This document shows, piece by piece, positions 42,958-53,029 of a DNA stretch of 64,000 nucleotides. The position numbers and the translations under genes were made by a program. The notes under the pieces are model-generated. The model did not search any database and was not told where the DNA came from. It worked only from the letters and a program-made list of their open reading frames with translations. Source of the DNA: Bacteroidaceae bacterium (GTDB lineage Bacteria > Bacteroidota > Bacteroidia > Bacteroidales > Bacteroidaceae); contig JAFZSP010000033.1 in assembly GCA_017619335.1 (NCBI GenBank), forward strand, positions 1-64,000. Reading direction: 5' to 3'. Position 1 is the stretch's first letter; the number at the start of each line of letters is the position of its first letter.

Positions 42958-44217
42958 TTACAAAATTATGTGAGTTTGAGTGAAAATGTATATTGCTATC
43001 GCAGCGGACAACGCAGAGAAGAGGATGACTATGAACCAATTAGGTCTGGATTTTAGTTGATTCTCCAATTCTTCTATACGCGAAGAACTATTGGCCACTT
43101 GAAGAGCATATTCTGAGTTTTTCTTGGTTAACTCCGTAATAGAACCGTTTATCTTGCCGATGCTTTTCTGTAATTCGGCGTTTTGTTCATTGGCTTTCCT
43201 CAATTGCTGATCATGCAACTTCTGGCCCTCTTCCTGTGCTTTCGTCAATGCTTTCATCTGTTCTGTCAGGGCGGCGTTCTGCTTGCGTGCCTGCGTGAGT
43301 TCTTGCTCATATTGTTTCTTCACCTCATTGACCAGTGCTGCTTTTGATTTTGCACGCTGTTCTATGATGTCATTCACCATATTACTGAAATAAGAACCCA
43401 AGGCGAAAGGTACGTCCACCTCTTTATCCACCAGTTTCTTGATAAATGCAGCCTCATCCGGGTGACCCACTGCTGATATAACAGGAGTCTTCATCTGCAC
43501 GATTGTCTTCAATACATCTAAGTTGTCAAGTGCTCCCCAATCTTTCTCGCCTCCACCACCTCTCACGAGGGCTATAGCATCGTACCCTTTAAGGTCTTGT
43601 TGTTTCAGCATGTTTATCAGATCCAACGCTCGCGCAAAGCTACAACGCATTCTCACAAACTGCACTTTTTCCTTAGCCGCTGCATTCAGTCCTCTGTTAA
43701 AATCTGTCTCTGTAATTGCGGTTTCTGCGATAATCAGTCCAATCACTGGCCGCCTGTCCTCATACAGTATGCTTTCCAGAATCGTATCCACATTCTTGCC
43801 CTTGCTCTTGTTTTTAATCAGAAGTAGCTCGTTTCTCTTGGCATCCTCTTCTGAAACCACATTCGTTTGTACTGTCTCGGCCCAAGTCACTCCAAGAATC
43901 AGCTGGATGGAGCTATAGGCATTCTGCACATTGTATTCTAGGATACCTGCCACATTAACCAAACTTCCCGACTGGAGTTGACTGTGCAAGGCCAATGGAA
44001 TCTTAATGTTCAGATAACTATTGCTGGAGGCATCCTTCAAAAAATCGAAACAATACCCTTGATAAACCTGTCCTTTACCAAGAATGAAAATACCCTGCAT
44101 ATAAATCCTCAGTTGTCCCTGCCGACAAGTGTAATAATCTGTCGTCAGTTTTCCTTTATAGATATTCAGTATCTCCGAAGGCGCATAATAGCGCGCTAAA
44201 GTTGTTTGTTGAGTCAT
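42958..44217 (-). CDS. Membrane-anchored exonuclease VII large-subunit (XseA)-like protein
   Basis: 419 residues. Residues about 10-110 form an OB-fold-like N-domain (RIYMQGIFILGKGQVYQGYCFDFL). Residues about 150-290 match the XseA catalytic core: PVIGLIIAETAI, ALVRGGGGEKDWGALDN, TPVISAVGHPDE and VPFALGSYFSNMV. Residues about 300-390 are a long coiled coil, and 395-419 a C-terminal transmembrane helix (FIVILFSALSAAIAIYIF). Normal XseA is soluble and pairs with small XseB; no XseB is next to it here. The membrane tail makes this a separate version, perhaps cutting DNA at the inner membrane. Its start is about 19 bases from the shared promoter motif. Confidence 0.8.
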   Translation of the reverse strand: MTQQTTLARYYAPSEILNIYKGKLTTDYYTCRQGQLRIYMQGIFILGKGQVYQGYCFDFLKDASSNSYLNIKIPLALHSQLQSGSLVNVAGILEYNVQNAYSSIQLILGVTWAETVQTNVVSEEDAKRNELLLIKNKSKGKNVDTILESILYEDRRPVIGLIIAETAITETDFNRGLNAAAKEKVQFVRMRCSFARALDLINMLKQQDLKGYDAIALVRGGGGEKDWGALDNLDVLKTIVQMKTPVISAVGHPDEAAFIKKLVDKEVDVPFALGSYFSNMVNDIIEQRAKSKAALVNEVKKQYEQELTQARKQNAALTEQMKALTKAQEEGQKLHDQQLRKANEQNAELQKSIGKINGSITELTKKNSEYALQVANSSSRIEELENQLKSRPNWFIVILFSALSAAIAIYIFTQTHIIL

Positions 44218-44235: not shown

Positions 44236-44269
44236 CCCTTTTATACGAGGAAATAGAAGAAAAGTAACC
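44236..44269 (-). promoter_or_regulatory. Island promoter motif, copy B (GGTTAC-N17-GTATAAA)
   Basis: On the minus strand: GGTTACTTTT ... GTATAAAAGGGC, spacing 17, directly before the XseA-like gene. Confidence 0.72.
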
Positions 44270-44331
44270 TAAAAGTGGTTTCCAAATGCATTTTTATGTA
44301 ACAAGAGGACTAATCTTAGTATAAAATCATT

Positions 44332-44357: not shown

Positions 44358-47162
44358 ATGAGACGTTTTTGGTTCTTTATTCTTTTCATCCTGTCTGTGG
44401 ATTATTCCTTTTCTATAAAATATATTCGTCCTGTTTTTGATAGGACAGATAACTATGTCTTACATTTAGATAGTGTTGAACAAACTAAAGACTCGATATT
44501 TCTCTTCTTTACTTATGATGCTGAAGCAGGCTCATGGGCCAATATCTCTATACATTCGTTTATCCGAGATTGTGAAACTAATCAAGAGTACCAAATCCAA
44601 AATGTTTCAGGCATCCCATTTACTCCAAACAAACGTCATTTCTCGAGTAGCTGTAAATTGTTGGTCAGGATGAGTTTTAATGCAGGTAATTTTGATAGAT
44701 TTGATTTTATTGAGAATGAATCTGATAGTTTGGCTTTTAATATTCGAGGTATTAATTTGCTGGAAAAGAACCCAGAATCTGCAAGTCAATCTAACTTAGA
44801 AAAGGCTGCATCAAATTCATCAAGAGCCGACTTTTACTTTCGTATAGACGATTATAAAAAAGCCTTTGAACTGGAATTAGAAGCTATGCCAATATATATG
44901 GCACACTTAGGAAAGAAAAGTGTGAGATATGCTATTTCGGTTATGAATCTCGCCTTATATTCATGGAAGATGGGCAATTATGAGAAAGCCATTTATTATG
45001 GTAAAGAAGACCTATCTTTAAGTTTGTTTTTTTATGGCAAGGAGCATGAAACATATGCTAATTCTTTGTCATCTTTAGCTATCTATTATCAGTCTGTTGG
45101 AGATTTTATCCAATCTAAGGCGCTGAATGAAGAGGTCTGTAAGATACGCAAGAAGCTATTCGGAGATAAAAGCCCAGAATATGCAAACGCATTAACTCAG
45201 CTAGCTAAAGACTATCAAGGAATAGGGGACATTATACAAGCCATCGAATACACCGAACAATCATTAGCAATTACTAACAAGGAGGACATCCTATACCTTT
45301 TGAACCTCAACAACTTAGCCTCTCTATATTCTCATCTTCACCAAATCGAGCGAGCTGATAGCATCGAAACAGAGGTTGTTAAAATGGCGGAGAGTGTATT
45401 TGGTAAGCATCATAGTGAATACGCTACATATTTAGGCAATCTAGCAGGATATAAAGCTTTGCAAGGAGACTATTTCAATGCAATACAATTAGCTAAAGAA
45501 TCATTACATATTGACGAGGCGTTCGGCCCAAAAAGTCCTAAATACAAAAAGGGACTAAATAATTTAGCATATTTATATTATCATAGTGGTGATATTGATT
45601 CTGCTTTGAGTACATTACATAAGTGCTATAATTTATATGAGATTGACGATAAAATCACAGATAGAATCAATTACGTTTCCATTCTCCAGAGTTTAGCAGA
45701 GTGTTATGCTTCTAAAGGCAATTTTCAAAAGGCTGTTTCCTTTTCCAAAGAAGCCATAGAATCTTCACGTGAATATTTGGGTACTACTACTGGATATATG
45801 ACAATTAATGAAAAATACTTTTATTGGCAACAGTATCATGGTTTATTTGATGACAACTTTCCATATTATGTTGCTAAGCTAAAAGATGATTCACATATTC
45901 CCTATCTATATGACGTGGTATTATATTCTAATGGTTTTTCTTTTAGAAATAATAATGCTGATTGTTCTTGGGTGAACATCCAGAAGAGTCTAACAAAAGA
46001 TGATGTCGCAATTGAGTTTTTGTCACCTACGATTACATTAAACCAGCAGATGAGCATGATCTTTTATGCGCTTATTTCAGACTGTAGTAATTCTCCACAA
46101 ATGGTCGAATTATTTGATTTGAATCAATTGAGCAATGCGTTGTCGCAATCAACCAATAAAGATTCCACACTAGCAGAGCTTATATGGAAACCTATTCTTC
46201 CCCAAATAACGAAATACAAAAGAATTTTCTTTTCTCCAACATTTATATTTGATGCAATAGGAATCGAATATTTCCCAATTGCCGAAAACTACATCTGTGA
46301 TATGTTTCAAATGTATCGTATGTCTTCTACAAGAGAGATTATACGGATGCACTCCAAAAATAGTTCTTTCAGAAATTCTGTTTTATATGGTTCTTTAGAT
46401 TATGATAACGATGATTATTCACAAGTGATTGAAGGAATAAATAGTAGTAGAGTACACCGAGGAAGTTATGATCCATTACCTCATACACAAAAAGAAATCA
46501 CAGACATAGCGAAAATTCTAAAATCTAATAGCATTGATTGTAAGATTTTATCTGGAAATGAAGGAACAGAGGAATCTTTTAAGGCTTATTCAGGCCAGTC
46601 ACCTGATATCATTCATTTTGCAACTCATGGTAGTTATCTAAATAGTAATAAAGCAGCAACGGAGAAAAGTAAAAACAACTTGTCATTTATTTCTTCTGAT
46701 GTAGAAAATAGTCCTATGAACAAAGAGAAGGTTTTAACTCGTTCATTTTTGATTCTCTCGGGGGGCAACCGACTCATCCAACGTGAACCGATTTCTGCAG
46801 AACATGATGATGGAATTCTTACTGCAGCTGAAATCTCTCATTTGGATTTAAGTAAAACAGATCTTGTTGTTTTATCTGCTTGCGAAAGTGGTCTAGGCGA
46901 TTGGAGTGTGGACGGTGGACTTATGGGATTGCAGCGTGGATTCAAAGAAGCAGGAGTTAAGACCATTCTCATGAGTTTACGTAAAGTTGATGATGAAGCA
47001 ACACAAATACTGATGGTCGAGTTCTACAAAAATCTGATGAGTGGCAAGTCAAAACACCTATCTCTCAAAGATGCACAAAAGTATTTGCGCCAATATGAGG
47101 ATGGTAAATATGATGACCCGAAGTACTGGGCGGCGTTCATATTGTTAGATGGGTTAGACTAA
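44358..47162 (+). CDS. TPR-CHAT caspase-like protease
   Basis: 934 residues with probable signal peptide (ends SVDYSFS). Residues about 25-145 form a beta-rich N-domain. About 155-480 hold eight or so TPR units of the kinesin-light-chain type (YANALTQLAKDYQGIGDIIQAIEYTEQSL). About 620-930 are a CHAT domain with His757 in IIHFATHGSY and Cys842 in VVLSACESGLGDW, then GGLMGLQRGFKEAGVKTILMSL. CHAT proteases are separase/caspase relatives, and TPR-CHAT proteins work in several defence and death pathways. The gene is clearly AT-richer than the flanks, in line with transfer. It ends at a perfect 10-bp terminator. Confidence 0.88.
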   Translation: MRRFWFFILFILSVDYSFSIKYIRPVFDRTDNYVLHLDSVEQTKDSIFLFFTYDAEAGSWANISIHSFIRDCETNQEYQIQNVSGIPFTPNKRHFSSSCKLLVRMSFNAGNFDRFDFIENESDSLAFNIRGINLLEKNPESASQSNLEKAASNSSRADFYFRIDDYKKAFELELEAMPIYMAHLGKKSVRYAISVMNLALYSWKMGNYEKAIYYGKEDLSLSLFFYGKEHETYANSLSSLAIYYQSVGDFIQSKALNEEVCKIRKKLFGDKSPEYANALTQLAKDYQGIGDIIQAIEYTEQSLAITNKEDILYLLNLNNLASLYSHLHQIERADSIETEVVKMAESVFGKHHSEYATYLGNLAGYKALQGDYFNAIQLAKESLHIDEAFGPKSPKYKKGLNNLAYLYYHSGDIDSALSTLHKCYNLYEIDDKITDRINYVSILQSLAECYASKGNFQKAVSFSKEAIESSREYLGTTTGYMTINEKYFYWQQYHGLFDDNFPYYVAKLKDDSHIPYLYDVVLYSNGFSFRNNNADCSWVNIQKSLTKDDVAIEFLSPTITLNQQMSMIFYALISDCSNSPQMVELFDLNQLSNALSQSTNKDSTLAELIWKPILPQITKYKRIFFSPTFIFDAIGIEYFPIAENYICDMFQMYRMSSTREIIRMHSKNSSFRNSVLYGSLDYDNDDYSQVIEGINSSRVHRGSYDPLPHTQKEITDIAKILKSNSIDCKILSGNEGTEESFKAYSGQSPDIIHFATHGSYLNSNKAATEKSKNNLSFISSDVENSPMNKEKVLTRSFLILSGGNRLIQREPISAEHDDGILTAAEISHLDLSKTDLVVLSACESGLGDWSVDGGLMGLQRGFKEAGVKTILMSLRKVDDEATQILMVEFYKNLMSGKSKHLSLKDAQKYLRQYEDGKYDDPKYWAAFILLDGLD

Positions 47163-47542: not shown

Positions 47543-48157
47543 TCAATCTCTCGGCAGAATCATCTTGTACATTCGCCGCGTGGTTGTCTGATTACCATAC
47601 ATGGCCTCGTAATTGTATTTGTTCTGTGCCACCTCGCTGAATTCAAAGTCACAGCTGCGATAGAATTTGACGGCACTGTATTCTCTTGTGTCCAATGCTT
47701 CAACGGTCAGAAACATCGTGGCAGAAAAGGTGTCAGCCTTGGACATCTTCCGAATCTCTTCGATGATGTATGTGCCCAAATGGTCATCAGGGTTGTTCCG
47801 TTTTTCTTCACAGACAGCCAGATAGTCGATTTCATAAGCGGGATATTTCTCTTTGTCCCAGAACATCTCAGCATCTTCTGGATTCGGCAGGACTGAGGCG
47901 TTTTGCTCCTTACGCTCAATGATTCGTCTATCTTCACTGTTGAGCACTAAAGCATCCTTGCTGAGCGCAAAGAATGCTACGGCCTTTTCCCCCTCGAATA
48001 CAATCCAAAGGTTGGAAAGCCGTAACTGAATGAATTTGTCCAGACCTTTCTCTTTGTCGTGGATGAAGTCATCCATGGACTTCACCCCACACTTGAAATC
48101 AGAAAGAGCCGAAGTGTCTAAAGCCCTCTCAATACGGATGCTGTATCTCTTTTCCAT
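47543..48157 (-). CDS. GNAT acetyltransferase, possible toxin of a two-gene module
   Basis: 204 residues from ATG 48157. It has a GNAT fold: LSDFKCGVKSMDDFIHDKE near the N-terminus, a strand YEIDYLAVCEEKRNNPDDHLGTYIIEEI with the acetyl-CoA loop near DDHLGTYI, FLTVEALDTREYSAVKFYRSCDF, and a C-terminal strand. The CGVKSMDDF start resembles GNAT toxins of the TacT/AtaT type (usually C-G-xx-xLDxFL). An upstream small gene overlaps it by 29 bases, as toxin-antitoxin pairs do. It could instead modify a small molecule. Confidence 0.7.
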   Translation of the reverse strand: MEKRYSIRIERALDTSALSDFKCGVKSMDDFIHDKEKGLDKFIQLRLSNLWIVFEGEKAVAFFALSKDALVLNSEDRRIIERKEQNASVLPNPEDAEMFWDKEKYPAYEIDYLAVCEEKRNNPDDHLGTYIIEEIRKMSKADTFSATMFLTVEALDTREYSAVKFYRSCDFEFSEVAQNKYNYEAMYGNQTTTRRMYKMILPRD

Positions 48158-48326
48158 CAAGTCCGAACCAATGTGCTTCGTACTGTTCGCTTAATCGCTT
48201 GGAACGTTCCACTTGAGCCCTTTCGCGCTCATTAAGTTGCCCGGTGGCGACACGGGCAACGGCATCACGAATCTGATCCGCAATGTCTCCTCCAATAGGG
48301 GCGCGCCTTGTCTTAATTCCTAACAT
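48129..48326 (-). CDS. 65-residue protein, putative antitoxin partner of the GNAT gene
   Basis: It starts at ATG 48326, 28 bases after a TACCTTTG promoter. It is helical and charged (DQIRDAVARVATGQLNERER, then QVERSKRLSEQYE) and ends DGKEIQHPY. I do not recognise it as a ribbon-helix-helix or other known antitoxin. The 29-base overlap with the GNAT gene in another frame suggests coupled expression. Confidence 0.6.
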   Translation of the reverse strand: MLGIKTRRAPIGGDIADQIRDAVARVATGQLNERERAQVERSKRLSEQYEAHWFGLDGKEIQHPY

Positions 48327-48402: not shown

Positions 48403-49089
48403 TTACTTTGAGTGTAGCTTTTTTAATAATTCTTGTGCTTTTGCAGCTATTGGTGAACCCAAATTGTCTTGATAAAGGCTTTCTAAGAGAGGAATAGCTT
48501 TATCCGTCTGGTCATCTTTAATGTATGCCAATGCGAGATTCCAAACGATATCATTATCATATTGATAATAGGTAAACTCATCGGTCAATGATTGATGGAT
48601 GGATTCAAGTTCTGCTATGATGTCTTTCATATCCTTCTCTTCGTGAATACGATTGAAGAGTGAATAGAGTTCGGCAATGATGACAGAGTCTGTATCACCT
48701 CGTGACAGTTCATCAACATCGTAATGCTCATAGTAAGGAGTAAGCATCTCATTGATTCTGGCATATCTCACATTTTCTGCATGATAGCTATAACCAAAGT
48801 AGATGGCCAGGACGGCTGCAATAGAAGCTGCCCAGAGAGCAAGTCGTCGGACGCTGGAAGGACGCTTTGTCGCTGTGACTTCATTTATGATTACCTGATC
48901 GTGGGTGCTTTCTTTCTCTTTCAGGCCTTTTAGAAGAGCAGAGACAGCACGTGCTTGTTCTCTGAGGTCGGAATTCGACTTTAACTCCTCATGAAACAGT
49001 TCCTCTTCTTCTGGAGTCATTTCTCCTCGTAGGAAGCGCTCTATGAGTTCGTCCATTTCCTGGAACTTGATATCTTCTGTATTATTCAT
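48403..49089 (-). CDS. Anti-sigma-like protein, one transmembrane helix, TPR-like periplasmic part
   Basis: 228 residues. The N-terminus (about 1-75: MDELIERFLRGEMTPEEEELF) is the short helical region typical of anti-sigma factors of Bacteroidetes, without a zinc HxxxCxxC site. One transmembrane helix is near 82-100 (LALWAASIAAVLAIYFGYSY). The periplasmic part (about 105-228) ends in TPR-like helices (IVWNLALAYIKDDQTDKAIPLLESLY). The start overlaps the sigma gene by 8 bases. The layout fits a sigma factor held at the membrane and freed by a periplasmic signal. Confidence 0.75.
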   Translation of the reverse strand: MNNTEDIKFQEMDELIERFLRGEMTPEEEELFHEELKSNSDLREQARAVSALLKGLKEKESTHDQVIINEVTATKRPSSVRRLALWAASIAAVLAIYFGYSYHAENVRYARINEMLTPYYEHYDVDELSRGDTDSVIIAELYSLFNRIHEEKDMKDIIAELESIHQSLTDEFTYYQYDNDIVWNLALAYIKDDQTDKAIPLLESLYQDNLGSPIAAKAQELLKKLHSK

Positions 49090-49666
49090 AGTGCCTGCGG
49101 ATTAGTTCTTGATACTTTTGCTTGAATTTGCTGACGCACTTGTATTTCTGTGTCTTTACGGAATTGGCATTTGCGAAACCAAAGACGTCTGCAATAGTAC
49201 TCGTGGTATAGTTGTTCCAGTAATAGCCCAGAAAGATGTTGCGACAAGTTTCTGGCAGCGCGTCAATCACAGCTTGAACGATTCTCTCTGAATATGATTT
49301 TTCTTCCTGAGCCAGATCTTCCGTTGACCAATTGTATAGCGTGTCTATTTTGTCGGCCAGGAATTCGTCTTTTATTGTTACTGTTGCTTCATCAAACAAC
49401 GGAACCGTCCTTTTCTTCTGGCTGAGGAACTTCAAAGTCTGATTGATGCATACGCGGAGGAAGTAGGTGGAAAGAGAACTTGTCAATGTGGAGAGCTTGC
49501 CTTCTTTTATATTAAGGTATAGAGCGACAGAGGCGTTCTGGAAAATGTCATCCAAATCGGCATCATCCACAATGAAGGACTTACTCAGAAAAGAAAGAAC
49601 CTTTGGACGCTCCTCTGTAAGGAAAGCATTGAAGGCATGATGGTCTTGGGGTATCGTTATCTTCAT
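49082..49666 (-). CDS. ECF-type RNA polymerase sigma factor
   Basis: 194 residues from ATG 49666, which overlaps the caspase stop as ATGA. Region 2 is near 15-85 (RPKVLSFLSKSFIVDDADLDDIFQNASVALYLN), and region 4 near 125-190 (IDALPETCRNIFLGYYWNNYTTSTIADVFG, then SVKTQKYKCVSKFKQKY, the recognition helix). There is no region 1 or 3. It is the likely reader of the GGTTAC-N16/17-GTATAAA site found three times in the island, but this link is inferred from co-location only. No copy of that motif was found before its own operon. Confidence 0.88.
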   Translation of the reverse strand: MKITIPQDHHAFNAFLTEERPKVLSFLSKSFIVDDADLDDIFQNASVALYLNIKEGKLSTLTSSLSTYFLRVCINQTLKFLSQKKRTVPLFDEATVTIKDEFLADKIDTLYNWSTEDLAQEEKSYSERIVQAVIDALPETCRNIFLGYYWNNYTTSTIADVFGFANANSVKTQKYKCVSKFKQKYQELIRRHYE

Positions 49667-50538
49667 TGCTGCAAACTCGTTTCTATGACAATATTCTGAT
49701 TGTTGGGCCATCGCCCTTGTTGACGAATCATTTGTTTAAGCCTTTCTATGAATGATTGGGGCTGAGTTGAAAGTGGCTCTTCCTGCATCGTCTTTGCCAG
49801 ATGATAGGATAATGCACCATAACGAATACTCTCAACCCGGATCTCTGTATTCAATTGGTCTGCCCTGCATGCTTCCAGAAAGACAACATCTGACCATTTG
49901 GCATTATGCTCGACCTTAAAATGAGAACGTTTGTCTTTGATTGGTTTGAAGACTTTTCCATTTGGAGAGAAACCCACATGAGTTCCTCTCACCACGTCAT
50001 CATTACCACGAGAAGCAGTCCCGGCATGACAAGCATCGATGACAACATACACCATCCCATTCTTGCCGATCTTGGAGCGCAGTTGCTGGAGATACTTGTT
50101 CAGTTGGTCGTCCAAAAGATGGCGTTCACCTTGATAAACGCCTCTCCGATAGAGCTTGTATGCATCAATAGGTATGACGGCTTCATCCCAACCATCTTCT
50201 TCATCGCCGTCGAAGTCTTCTACAGGTTGACCATGAGTAGAGAAATGGAGGTAAACAATATCTCCCTTTTTACTTCCTCGGATGAACTGTTCCAGTTGTT
50301 TCGTGATTTGCAGATAGGTGGCTGCATCGTCAATGATTGCCGATATTTGAAAACCCTGTTTCTCTAAAATTGGTTTCAGGAGCTGGATGTCAGCAACCCC
50401 GTTGATGTTATTCCATTGATAGCTTGTAAGTGCAGTGTCATAATTGGATACACCAACCATAAACGCTCTCTTTCTCTGTGCTGAAACAGATAAAGAAGCG
50501 AACAATAACAGACAATATATCAACGACCTATAACTCAT
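49663..50538 (-). CDS. Exported caspase-like (metacaspase) protease
   Basis: 291 residues from ATG 50538, with signal peptide ending SVSAQ. Caspase fold: KRAFMVGVSNYD, DIVYLHFSTHGQP with His102, an acidic DFDGDEEDGWDEAVIPID, YVVIDACHAGTA with Cys170, and VVFLEACRADQ. Both catalytic residues are present. The signal peptide places it in the periplasm or beyond, opposite to the usual cytoplasmic caspases. Its gene opens an operon with the sigma and anti-sigma genes (4- and 8-base overlaps). I infer that it may cut the periplasmic part of the anti-sigma protein. Confidence 0.87.
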   Translation of the reverse strand: MSYRSLIYCLLLFASLSVSAQRKRAFMVGVSNYDTALTSYQWNNINGVADIQLLKPILEKQGFQISAIIDDAATYLQITKQLEQFIRGSKKGDIVYLHFSTHGQPVEDFDGDEEDGWDEAVIPIDAYKLYRRGVYQGERHLLDDQLNKYLQQLRSKIGKNGMVYVVIDACHAGTASRGNDDVVRGTHVGFSPNGKVFKPIKDKRSHFKVEHNAKWSDVVFLEACRADQLNTEIRVESIRYGALSYHLAKTMQEEPLSTQPQSFIERLKQMIRQQGRWPNNQNIVIETSLQQ

Positions 50539-50555: not shown

Positions 50556-50563
50556 CAAAAGTA
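50556..50563 (-). promoter_or_regulatory. -7 element TACTTTTG for the caspase-sigma operon
   Basis: Matches TAnnTTTG, 18 bases before the caspase start. It lies back to back with motif C (50584-50616). Confidence 0.55.
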
Positions 50564-50583
50564 CACAAATTATTTGAATTATC

Positions 50584-50616
50584 GGTTACCTTTTAGGAAT
50601 TTATGGTATAAAAGGA
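50584..50616 (+). promoter_or_regulatory. Island promoter motif, copy C (GGTTAC-N16-GTATAAA)
   Basis: GGTTACCTTTT ... GTATAAAAGG, spacing 16, 44-47 bases before ATG 50660. It faces the five-gene operon. Confidence 0.72.
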
Positions 50617-50659: not shown

Positions 50660-50908
50660 ATGAATCTGGACTTAGATGGCTCATTAGAGCGCCCCTTTAT
50701 GGAAGAGAATAACAACATTTCAGATTACATCGAGGATAAAGAGGTCCTCCTTGATGGAATGGAAGTGTACGAAACTGAAACAATCGAAGAAGATCGGTGT
50801 GTGTGGACAGAAGAAGACTCTTGGGAAGTTCTATCAGACGGTATGTATGAAGAAATGCCACGCAATCCGATTGCATATGATACTGCACTGGAAGCAATGG
50901 GGTATTAA
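50660..50908 (+). CDS. Small acidic protein, first gene of the vWA operon
   Basis: 82 residues, strongly acidic (MEENNNISDYIEDKEVLLDG, VWTEEDSWEVLSDG). No signal peptide, no known domain. It has a real promoter motif and a gap of 19 bases to the next gene, so it is probably a true gene. Acidic small proteins often mimic DNA or act as inhibitors, but nothing shows that here. Confidence 0.6.
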   Translation: MNLDLDGSLERPFMEENNNISDYIEDKEVLLDGMEVYETETIEEDRCVWTEEDSWEVLSDGMYEEMPRNPIAYDTALEAMGY

Positions 50909-50927
50909 TTCAAAAAAGTATAAAAAG

Positions 50928-51383
50928 ATGGATCAATGGCCCAATTTTCAAGTATTCACATTCAGAGAGTTTTCCTTCTCAGTTGAAAGTTATAAAGAAT
51001 ACATTTGTGGCTGTTTAGTGAACTCAGGTTATGTGAACTGTGTCGTTACTTTTAAACAGCACAACAATGGTAATTATCATTTAGGAGGAGTCATCTCTGT
51101 TCAGATTAGAAACAATCCTTTGAAAGACAAGATCCTTTCCTCTTTTGAATTCGACTCTTGCGTTACAATGGGTGACCGATTAATGATGTATATAGGTGCC
51201 AATCACTCTAACGTGGATGATACTTCATTACACATGATGACTTCCTTTATGGGTTACACAAGAGAAAGGAAAGACTATGTAACAAATGAACCCACAGTTG
51301 GTAATATATTTACTACCAATCAACAAATTGTCCGAATCGCATTCAAATTTGTGAATCCAGACAGACTGATAGAATTCTATTAA
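50928..51383 (+). CDS. Unknown soluble protein of the vWA operon
   Basis: 151 residues from ATG 50928; an earlier in-frame ATG would overlap the acidic gene by more than 150 bases and reads as a non-coding start. The protein looks beta-rich (FQVFTFREFSFSVESY, GYVNCVVTFKQHNNGNYHLG, RIAFKFVNPDRLIEFY). I do not recognise the family. Ten bases separate it from the next gene. Confidence 0.62.
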   Translation: MDQWPNFQVFTFREFSFSVESYKEYICGCLVNSGYVNCVVTFKQHNNGNYHLGGVISVQIRNNPLKDKILSSFEFDSCVTMGDRLMMYIGANHSNVDDTSLHMMTSFMGYTRERKDYVTNEPTVGNIFTTNQQIVRIAFKFVNPDRLIEFY

Positions 51384-51393
51384 AATCACCATT

Positions 51394-51861
51394 ATGACGA
51401 ACTACGAATACATTTTGATTGAGTGCAAGAATGCACATTACCATCAGTGGACACCGACGGCTGTAGAGGCATGTGTGAAGAAACTGAAAGGGTTAACGCG
51501 GGAAGAACTGGTGAGACTTTTCACTTCTCGTTGGCTGGACAAGAAGGATGAACTGCGGCAGGTCATCTTTGCCATACTGTTCCAGAATGAGAAAGAGCAG
51601 TTGGAAGCGATGATTCATAATGCGAGCGTTGAGGACCTGGGAAAGATGCTCATCGAGAAGAATGGCAAGTATGTCAAGTGGGCACGTCAGGAACTGAAAG
51701 AGCGGTACCAGCGCGTTGACCACGATACACAAATGAGCATCATCAGCTTTTTCATGAGAGGGCAAACGAAGACTGATGTGAAGTGGGGACAAGTGCGTGA
51801 GAAATGGCAGAAGCGCGGCTTCGCTAATCCTCCAAGTATCTTTGATTCATGGGGGAAGTAA
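51394..51861 (+). CDS. Unknown helical protein of the vWA operon
   Basis: 155 residues, helical and charged (VEACVKKLKGLTREELVRLF, LDKKDELRQVIFAILFQNE, GKYVKWARQELKERYQ), with the look of HEAT-like hairpins. No family is recognised. Confidence 0.62.
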   Translation: MTNYEYILIECKNAHYHQWTPTAVEACVKKLKGLTREELVRLFTSRWLDKKDELRQVIFAILFQNEKEQLEAMIHNASVEDLGKMLIEKNGKYVKWARQELKERYQRVDHDTQMSIISFFMRGQTKTDVKWGQVREKWQKRGFANPPSIFDSWGK

Positions 51862-51902
51862 TAACAAATATCGATTATTAACCATTATAAAAGAGTAGAA
51901 AC

Positions 51903-52601
51903 ATGAAACAAAAAGTTTACAATCTGATCATTCTCGACGAGAGTGGATCAATGACTACAATTCAAGGTGTAGCCGTGAGCGGTGTCAATGAGACGCTTCA
52001 AACAATAAAAAATGCGCAGAGAGAGCATCCTGAAATCCAGCAATTTGTAACATTGGTGCCGTTTAATTCGATTCGGATTCATAGTCCATTCTTCCTGAAA
52101 GAAGTTGATGTGGAGGAGCCTTTGAACTGGACGGATTATATGCCAGATGGTTGTACTCCCTTATATGATGCGATGGGAATGTCCATTCAGAAGTTAAGGG
52201 AAGTCGTTACCGATGAGGATGTGGTACTGGTAACCATTATCACCGATGGTCTGGAAAATGCTTCAAGAGAATACTCAGGAAGTATGATTCGTCATCTGGT
52301 CTGTGAATTGAAGGAGAAAGGCTGGGTCTTTGCATACATCGGAACTAATCATGATGTAGATGCAGTTGCAGATAATCTGGACATCCATAGCAGAGCGAGC
52401 TACGATTGTTCTCTCAAGGGTGCTGGTGAAATGTTCGAAATGGAGAATCGCAGCAGAAGAACCTTCTATGAAAGATTGTCATCCGTGGGAAGATGCTTTC
52501 TTATAGAGGAAGACATTGACTATTTCAATCAGGACAATGGGAATAAAGAAAAAAGTAAGTGTAATATTAACTGGAACCAAATAGATTCTATATCATTTTA
52601 A
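51903..52601 (+). CDS. Von Willebrand factor A domain protein
   Basis: 232 residues. A cytoplasmic vWA domain fills most of the protein. The metal-ion site is complete: Asp12-x-Ser14-x-Ser16 in ILDESGSM, the Thr in DGCTPLYDA, and the Asp in IITDGLEN. Later strands include GWVFAYIGTNHDVDAVAD, as in TerY-like stress vWA proteins. The last 60 residues (RRTFYERLSSVGRCF) are a short tail. It may act as a scaffold that binds another gene product of the operon. Confidence 0.85.
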   Translation: MKQKVYNLIILDESGSMTTIQGVAVSGVNETLQTIKNAQREHPEIQQFVTLVPFNSIRIHSPFFLKEVDVEEPLNWTDYMPDGCTPLYDAMGMSIQKLREVVTDEDVVLVTIITDGLENASREYSGSMIRHLVCELKEKGWVFAYIGTNHDVDAVADNLDIHSRASYDCSLKGAGEMFEMENRSRRTFYERLSSVGRCFLIEEDIDYFNQDNGNKEKSKCNINWNQIDSISF

Positions 52602-52615
52602 TCTGATTGTGAATT

Positions 52616-53029
52616 ATGAAACGTATTGAAACACTGAAATGTAACCATCCCAGAATCTTTTGGGTGAGTTGGGGCGCAACCCTATTATGGATGGTTACGG
52701 TTACTATCAATTATGCCAGCGGGTACACGCTCATCTTCCAATATTTGTTGGATGACTTGGGATTTTTACTATTGCCAACGGGTATGTTCTTCATGTTCAG
52801 CTCACTCGATTGGAGCGAGGTAGAGAACTTTGCCTTTTTCCTTCATCCTGGCCGTTTAAAGCAGATAGGATTTGACTACCTTGCCATGTTCATACTTCTT
52901 TGCTTTTTCAGAGAGTATACGGAGTGGCTGCGAAATGCACTCATTATGCTATCACTCACAAAATATCTTTATGATATGATTAAACTGGCAGATATGAAGA
53001 AAGTGGAAAGAGAGATAGTAATAGAATGA
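52616..53029 (+). CDS. Small multi-pass membrane protein, last gene of the vWA operon
   Basis: 137 residues with three or four transmembrane helices (WVSWGATLLWMVTVTI, LGFLLLPTGMFFMFS, YLAMFILLCFF, and a weaker one near the C-terminus). The N- and C-termini are basic and charged. No family is recognised. It could be the membrane effector or anchor of the operon. Confidence 0.62.
   Translation: MKRIETLKCNHPRIFWVSWGATLLWMVTVTINYASGYTLIFQYLLDDLGFLLLPTGMFFMFSSLDWSEVENFAFFLHPGRLKQIGFDYLAMFILLCFFREYTEWLRNALIMLSLTKYLYDMIKLADMKKVEREIVIE

Follow-up and report, generated by a model that had tools for sequence, protein, structure and literature searches.

Regulated intramembrane proteolysis of anti-sigma factors is exemplified by RseA, DegS and RseP, and by RsiW. 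In type III-E CRISPR systems, the TPR-CHAT protease Csx29 cleaves Csx30, the inhibitor of CASP-sigma, and thus frees the sigma factor (PMC10028731); the cleavage sites in Csx30, at L-D, M-K and A-S bonds, are not conserved (PMC11106740). Predicted prokaryotic operons joining metacaspases with sigma-70 factors, in Myxococcus and others, were listed in 2012 (PMC3501461). The ECF54 group of sigma factors has CHAT, subtilase and carboxypeptidase genes as neighbors, and proteolysis has been proposed for it (PMC8999054).

Here we analyze a locus in a 64,000-nucleotide stretch of DNA from a Bacteroidaceae bacterium (contig JAFZSP010000033.1; hereafter the window). A preliminary description, made from the sequence, had recognized an exported caspase, an ECF sigma factor and an anti-sigma-like protein with one transmembrane (TM) helix, and had proposed that the caspase makes the first cut in the anti-sigma factor and so frees the sigma factor.

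Results

The three genes were described as overlapping by 4 and 8 bases, and we confirmed their coordinates and both overlaps: the sigma and caspase genes share 4 bases (ATGA), and the anti-sigma-like and sigma genes share 8. A TPR-CHAT gene, absent from that three-gene description, is a conserved fourth partner; it is inverted relative to the operon and lies about 1.2 kb past the anti-sigma gene. The features of the locus are as follows.

44264-44292, plus strand: weaker copy of the GTAACC element, ahead of the CHAT gene, found with a relaxed pattern
44358-47162, plus strand: TPR-CHAT protease-like protein of 934 aa, exported (PF12770, E=1.7e-53, together with TPRs)
46458-46463, plus strand: R701-G702, candidate metacaspase site just N-terminal to the CHAT catalytic domain (codon checked)
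47543-48326, minus strand: GNAT-like gene and overlapping small ORF, between the anti-sigma and CHAT genes
48403-49089, minus strand: anti-sigma-like membrane protein, 228 aa, with N-terminal helical domain, one TM helix and predicted periplasmic TPR
48697-48702, minus strand: R130-G131, candidate cleavage site in periplasmic loop 120-132 of the AF2 model
49082-49666, minus strand: ECF sigma factor, 194 aa, ATG at 49666 (TIGR02937 sigma70-ECF, E=4.9e-17)
49663-50538, minus strand: exported metacaspase-like C14 protease, 291 aa, ATG at 50538, stop at 49663 (PF00656, E=6e-17)
49984-49989, minus strand: R184-G185 ("VRG"), candidate self-processing site 14 residues past Cys170
50029-50031 and 50233-50235, minus strand: codons of C170 and H102, the metacaspase catalytic dyad
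50558-50590, minus strand: promoter-like element preceding the operon, GGTAACC-N18-TGTACTTT

Several other genes lie in or beside the module. The GNAT-like protein (205 aa; PF13508 only at E=0.067) and the overlapping 65-aa ORF upstream of it resemble a GNAT toxin-antitoxin pair inserted into the module. Beside the CHAT gene, 42958-44217 on the minus strand encodes a protein of 419 aa that carries the large-subunit domain of exonuclease VII (PF02601, E=3e-18), includes a stretch of coiled coil and ends in a hydrophobic C terminus. Just upstream of the operon, divergent small ORFs without Pfam matches occupy 50660-53029 on the plus strand; among them is a 232-aa protein starting "YNLIILDESGSM" that, judged by eye, resembles a von Willebrand A domain.

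A relative of the protease was found in 27 of 151 genomes of the same family. The preliminary description had called for a search for co-occurrence of the three families; we ran it on 80 named relatives on genome contigs, mostly from Prevotella and Bacteroidaceae of gut and rumen, and found sigma and anti-sigma genes in the same locus as the protease in 75. CHAT is present in about 70 of the 80 loci, and some of the remaining loci are cut by contig ends. Cultured bacteria that carry the locus include Palleniella intestinalis PINT (L108) and Prevotella sp. P6B1 (L080) and MA2016 (L123). The order of the genes is not fixed: sigma, anti-sigma and caspase follow one another in L044 and L143, and sigma, anti-sigma, CHAT and caspase in L112 and L123. 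That the set stays together while its order varies argues for a functional link beyond shared descent, and the arrangement is not a chance neighborhood. Incomplete versions also occur. Two loci (L102 and L038) have metacaspase and CHAT without sigma, and six clade-3 loci (L051-L056) have metacaspase and sigma with a one-TM protein that cannot be aligned to the anti-sigma family. L051, L053 and L055 (with L054 and L056) also carry two sorts of exported protein that recur from genome to genome, one of about 600-625 aa and one of 210-240 aa.

The protease begins with a predicted signal peptide, read by eye as MSYRSLIYCLLLFASLSVSA-Q, in agreement with its description as exported. Its reportedly intact H102 and C170, the His-Cys dyad of metacaspases and orthocaspases (C14B), are invariant in a 25-row alignment (A1), as are D50, S100 and D168. 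When the A1 profile was run against PDB sequences with hmmsearch, it retrieved metacaspases (4f6o, 7.6e-20; 7qp0, 1.2e-19; TbMCA2, 4e-14). Foldseek with the AF2 model of the protease (pLDDT 89) returned 3bij, the Arg-specific paracaspase MALT1 and the plant metacaspase AtMC9 (prob 1.00), and also TbMCA2, a trypanosome metacaspase. On these profile and fold matches the enzyme is metacaspase/paracaspase-like and no true Asp-specific caspase, its subgroup within C14B being left unfixed because MALT1 ranks above the eukaryotic metacaspases in the Foldseek search. By motif position, the invariant D50, S100 and D168 correspond to Asp95, Ser156 and Asp211, the S1 residues of TbMCA2 (PMC4357240), and the protease should therefore cut after Arg or Lys. 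For the enzyme earlier labeled "caspase", the predicted P1 residue is Arg/Lys, not Asp. The enzyme itself carries a candidate self-processing site, R184-G185, found in 81 of 81 sequences of the nr90 set; R occupies the 184 column in 105 of 106 rows from linked proteins versus 4 of 36 from unlinked ones, and the nearest unlinked relatives (L207-L210) have RG, but shifted from the aligned column. The genome encodes four further Peptidase_C14 proteins (L001-L004, on contigs C85, C13, C48 and C22), which are unlinked to sigma factors. Against the NCBIfam EACC1-caspase model NF047832, the protease scored 20 bits, far below the cut-off of 140.

The sigma gene product scores 62.1 bits against TIGR02937, above the cut-off of 42.9, with Pfam r2 and r4 falling below their cut-offs; it has sigma2 and sigma4 without sigma3, as ECF factors do. 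The N terminus of the 228-aa protein resembles NF010501, "putative anti-sigmaE" (E=2.7e-5, far below that model's cut-off), and no Pfam anti-sigma domain (ASD) matched the protein. It has a single hydrophobic helix at about residues 83-103, and a profile search identified its C terminus as TPR. Like a transmembrane anti-sigma factor, it combines one TM helix with a predicted cytoplasmic N-terminal domain and a gene downstream of sigma. In its AF2 model (pLDDT 83), helix 79-119 includes the membrane segment and is followed by loop 120-132 and by TPR helices 133-227; compared with the PDB, the model gave only TPR matches, above E=0.04. The weak N-terminal similarity and the position of the gene suggest an anti-sigma factor, and this membrane protein probably holds the ECF sigma factor.

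Upstream of the operon, the promoter-like element is the sole match to GTAACYN{17,19}TGTAYTTT in the 3.59-Mb assembly. A broader pattern, applied to 31 loci of the window's clade, matched 31 times against an expectation of 1.3; four of these matches precede CHAT, and the majority precede the caspase gene; clear copies of the GTAACC element precede CHAT in L033, L074, L084 and L087. The downstream (-10) half of the operon element also fits TAnnTTTG, the housekeeping Bacteroidetes -7 element. The distribution of the element suggests autoregulation by an ECF sigma factor, putatively the one encoded here.

R130 is the most conserved residue of the anti-sigma protein, with 75 Arg and one Lys among 76 nr90 homologues, in which the median periplasmic column is 41% conserved; the following residue is Gly in 71 of the 76. 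In the model, a single loop connects the membrane helix to the TPR domain on the periplasmic side; R130 sits in this loop, immediately ahead of the first TPR helix. Both R130 and R701 of the CHAT protein, which is described below, are candidate protease substrate sites.

These observations lead us to a periplasmic proteolytic switch for the ECF sigma factor in which the metacaspase takes part directly or through CHAT, a reading that we consider about evenly poised between right and wrong. The anti-sigma factor would hold sigma at the inner membrane, with its TPR domain outside and joined by a short loop. The exported Arg/Lys-specific metacaspase, probably self-processed at R184-G185, would cut this loop after R130, either directly or by activating TPR-CHAT after R701, or both. 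An M50 (RseP-type) protease, one of which is encoded in the genome, would next cleave the shortened anti-sigma factor within the membrane, and clearance of the remainder would release sigma. Once free, sigma would drive its own operon through the GGTAAC promoter, and in some genomes the CHAT gene as well. The analysis shows the gene set and its co-conservation, a metacaspase-type fold with the S1 residues, the conserved Arg sites, the topology of the model, the promoter-like element and an M50 protease gene; we infer that the 228-aa protein is an anti-sigma factor, that it is cut, by which protease and on what trigger, and that this sigma factor reads the element. Against this reading stand the two loci with both proteases but no sigma gene, the occurrence of R701 in about half of the unlinked CHATs, an anti-sigma assignment based on gene position and weak N-terminal similarity, and the fit of the -10 half of the element to a housekeeping one.

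As to the proposal that the caspase makes the first cut, its co-occurrence with the anti-sigma gene, its export and the fit of the loop Arg to its predicted P1 preference speak for it; the same R130 site, however, also goes with CHAT where there is no metacaspase, and the metacaspase may therefore act through CHAT or share the job with it. The CHAT protein has a signal peptide, a PF12770 domain (182 bits) and the conserved catalytic His757 and Cys842 of a CHAT protease. Arg or Lys stands at position 701 in 78 of 80 metacaspase-linked CHATs. The corresponding figures are 18 of 33 for same-family CHATs that lack a linked metacaspase and 15 of 41 for CHATs from the rest of the phylum (Fisher p=5e-8 and 9e-14, respectively, in tests that ignore relatedness and so treat nonindependent sequences as independent). 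On the tree, linked CHATs do not form a group apart but lie scattered among the unlinked ones. One genome (G010, locus L204) has sigma, anti-sigma and CHAT without a metacaspase match, and there R130 is kept and the aligned R701 is absent; this single case favors a division of labor between the proteases. More specifically, the metacaspase could be an initiator that activates an executioner TPR-CHAT at R701, which in turn would cut the anti-sigma factor at R130 and turn on the ECF regulon in a non-CRISPR setting. A sigma/anti-sigma/CHAT core found across Bacteroidota would then have gained the metacaspase in the Bacteroidaceae/Prevotella lineage. We consider this cascade less likely than not. 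We also considered self-cleavage of CHAT at R701 as a prerequisite for cutting at R130; it is disfavored by CHAT-only modules that keep R130 without R701.

Two further sets of loci concern the CHAT gene. In family genomes without the metacaspase, L395-L424 carry TPR-CHAT genes, with no sigma in most of these loci; conserved ORFs of some 400-450 aa and 150-240 aa frequently flank them, and they probably represent a separate CHAT system. L209, L213 and L221, which come from other families of the phylum, encode long metacaspase-like proteins (about 680-750 aa) with CHAT adjacent or close and no sigma, so pairing of the two clan-CD proteases does not depend on sigma.

In the strongest competing explanation, the first cut at R130 is the work of TPR-CHAT alone, and the metacaspase either serves as an accessory that activates CHAT or belongs to the regulon without a part in the switch. 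Throughout Bacteroidota, sigma/anti-sigma/CHAT modules that lack the metacaspase keep an R130-type Arg or Lys, and R130 is accordingly not diagnostic of the metacaspase; the idea that it proves metacaspase cleavage was dropped, since the site is found more widely, in the metacaspase-free loci L204, L206, L255-L314 and L345-L364. Because CHAT-adjacent proteins from other genomes had gone into part of the anti-sigma profile, we tested the association in held-out genomes (about 148), where CHAT occurred in 39 of 43 with this anti-sigma protein versus 35 of 105 without it (p=1e-10). Cutting by a CHAT protease alone also has a precedent in Csx29 and Csx30 (PMC10028731). Yet the six metacaspase-sigma loci L051-L056, whose genomes (completeness 79-94%) gave no CHAT match at all, keep R-[SA] just before the TPR-like helices of their unalignable one-TM proteins. 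Moreover, the CHAT proteases of Craspase need no fixed P1 residue (PMC11106740), so that CHAT by itself would not obviously demand an invariant Arg. The R130 site, retained beside CHAT alone, metacaspase alone, or both, goes with clan-CD proteases in general. That CHAT alone makes the first cut we think rather unlikely.

R130 may still be structural. Under that explanation it would be a structural or binding residue, the proteases would be exported outputs of the sigma regulon, and the anti-sigma factor would be under a DegS- or Prc-type protease or under no proteolysis. Arg is present at this place in nearly all TPR anti-sigmas of the family, though a few family members lack an obvious Arg there (L305, L353 and L433). 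It persists even at several loci that have no gene for either protease next to them (L206 and L345-L347), which makes a structural role possible; the genome of L206 (G146) has neither a metacaspase nor a CHAT match, and those of L345-L347 have CHAT elsewhere. The operon's promoter-like element is, moreover, common to the proteases. Against this, four homologues (L047-L050) have lost the TPR part but kept the Arg, Lys is the usual replacement (L289, L304 and the one of 76), and parallel R-[GS] sites occur in the metacaspase itself and in CHAT. We regard a structural R130 as unlikely, and prefer a proteolytic switch in which the metacaspase takes part.

Export to the periplasm is unusual for caspase conflict systems. 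Comparative genomics has described caspase-like proteases with ECF sigmas as such systems (PMC8195603), but a cell-suicide or conflict role, with sigma switching on exported caspase-like effectors that attack envelope proteins, is highly improbable here given that export, the absence from the module of a toxin-like effector, NTPase switch or immune marker, and the return by PADLOC at this locus of only a generic caspase model and generic hits.

Discussion

For most bacterial metacaspases and CHAT proteases, we know of no substrate. The neighborhood analyzed here offers a specific candidate substrate, the anti-sigma factor, and a specific bond, R130-G131. If the proposed switch is real, caspase-type cascades would serve ordinary envelope-to-gene signaling, beyond cell death or CRISPR immunity, and the link between Craspase and CASP-sigma would be one branch of a wider joining of CHAT proteases to sigma factors.

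The preliminary description knew of no such arrangement in the literature. That calls for correction: the Csx29/Csx30/CASP-sigma system (PMC10028731) is a working precedent, and operons of metacaspases with sigma-70 factors were on record by 2012 (PMC3501461). Our search of the open-access literature, which left the main ECF classification outside its scope, returned no account of an exported and membrane-anchored form with both metacaspase and CHAT, and in the literature searched this two-protease form appears undescribed.

Among related systems, the caspase systems with EACC2 likewise have a caspase domain, an ECF sigma and a TPR gene in one neighborhood, whereas no EACC or TRADD-N domain is found at this locus (PMC8195603). 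ECF54 shares with our locus an ECF sigma with a CHAT protein in its gene neighborhood but, by description, has no anti-sigma factor, while a putative one is present here (PMC8999054). In the predicted operons of 2012 a metacaspase gene adjoins a sigma gene, as it does here; the consulted part of that survey gives no anti-sigma factor, CHAT partner, cleavage site, mechanism or Bacteroidetes sigma case (PMC3501461).

Two further systems invite comparison. The putative anti-sigma factor resembles RseA and RsiW in having one TM helix, with a side for sigma binding in the cytoplasm and a sensor side in the periplasm, together with an M50 protease in the genome; unlike in the RseA/DegS pathway, the site-1 protease is predicted to be the metacaspase, CHAT, or both, and no PDZ serine protease. 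With Craspase the locus shares a clan-CD TPR-CHAT protein encoded together with a putative ECF-sigma inhibitor and the sigma factor. It differs in having exported proteases, a putative inhibitor that spans the membrane and places its TPR domain in the periplasm, an additional metacaspase and, as the predicted site, a near-invariant Arg, in contrast to the unconserved sites of Csx30 (PMC11106740); no Cas7-11, other Cas-like protein or CRISPR component was seen among the neighboring window genes examined. The working principle is nonetheless a known one, both from Csx29, Csx30 and CASP-sigma (PMC10028731) and from RseA-type proteolysis.
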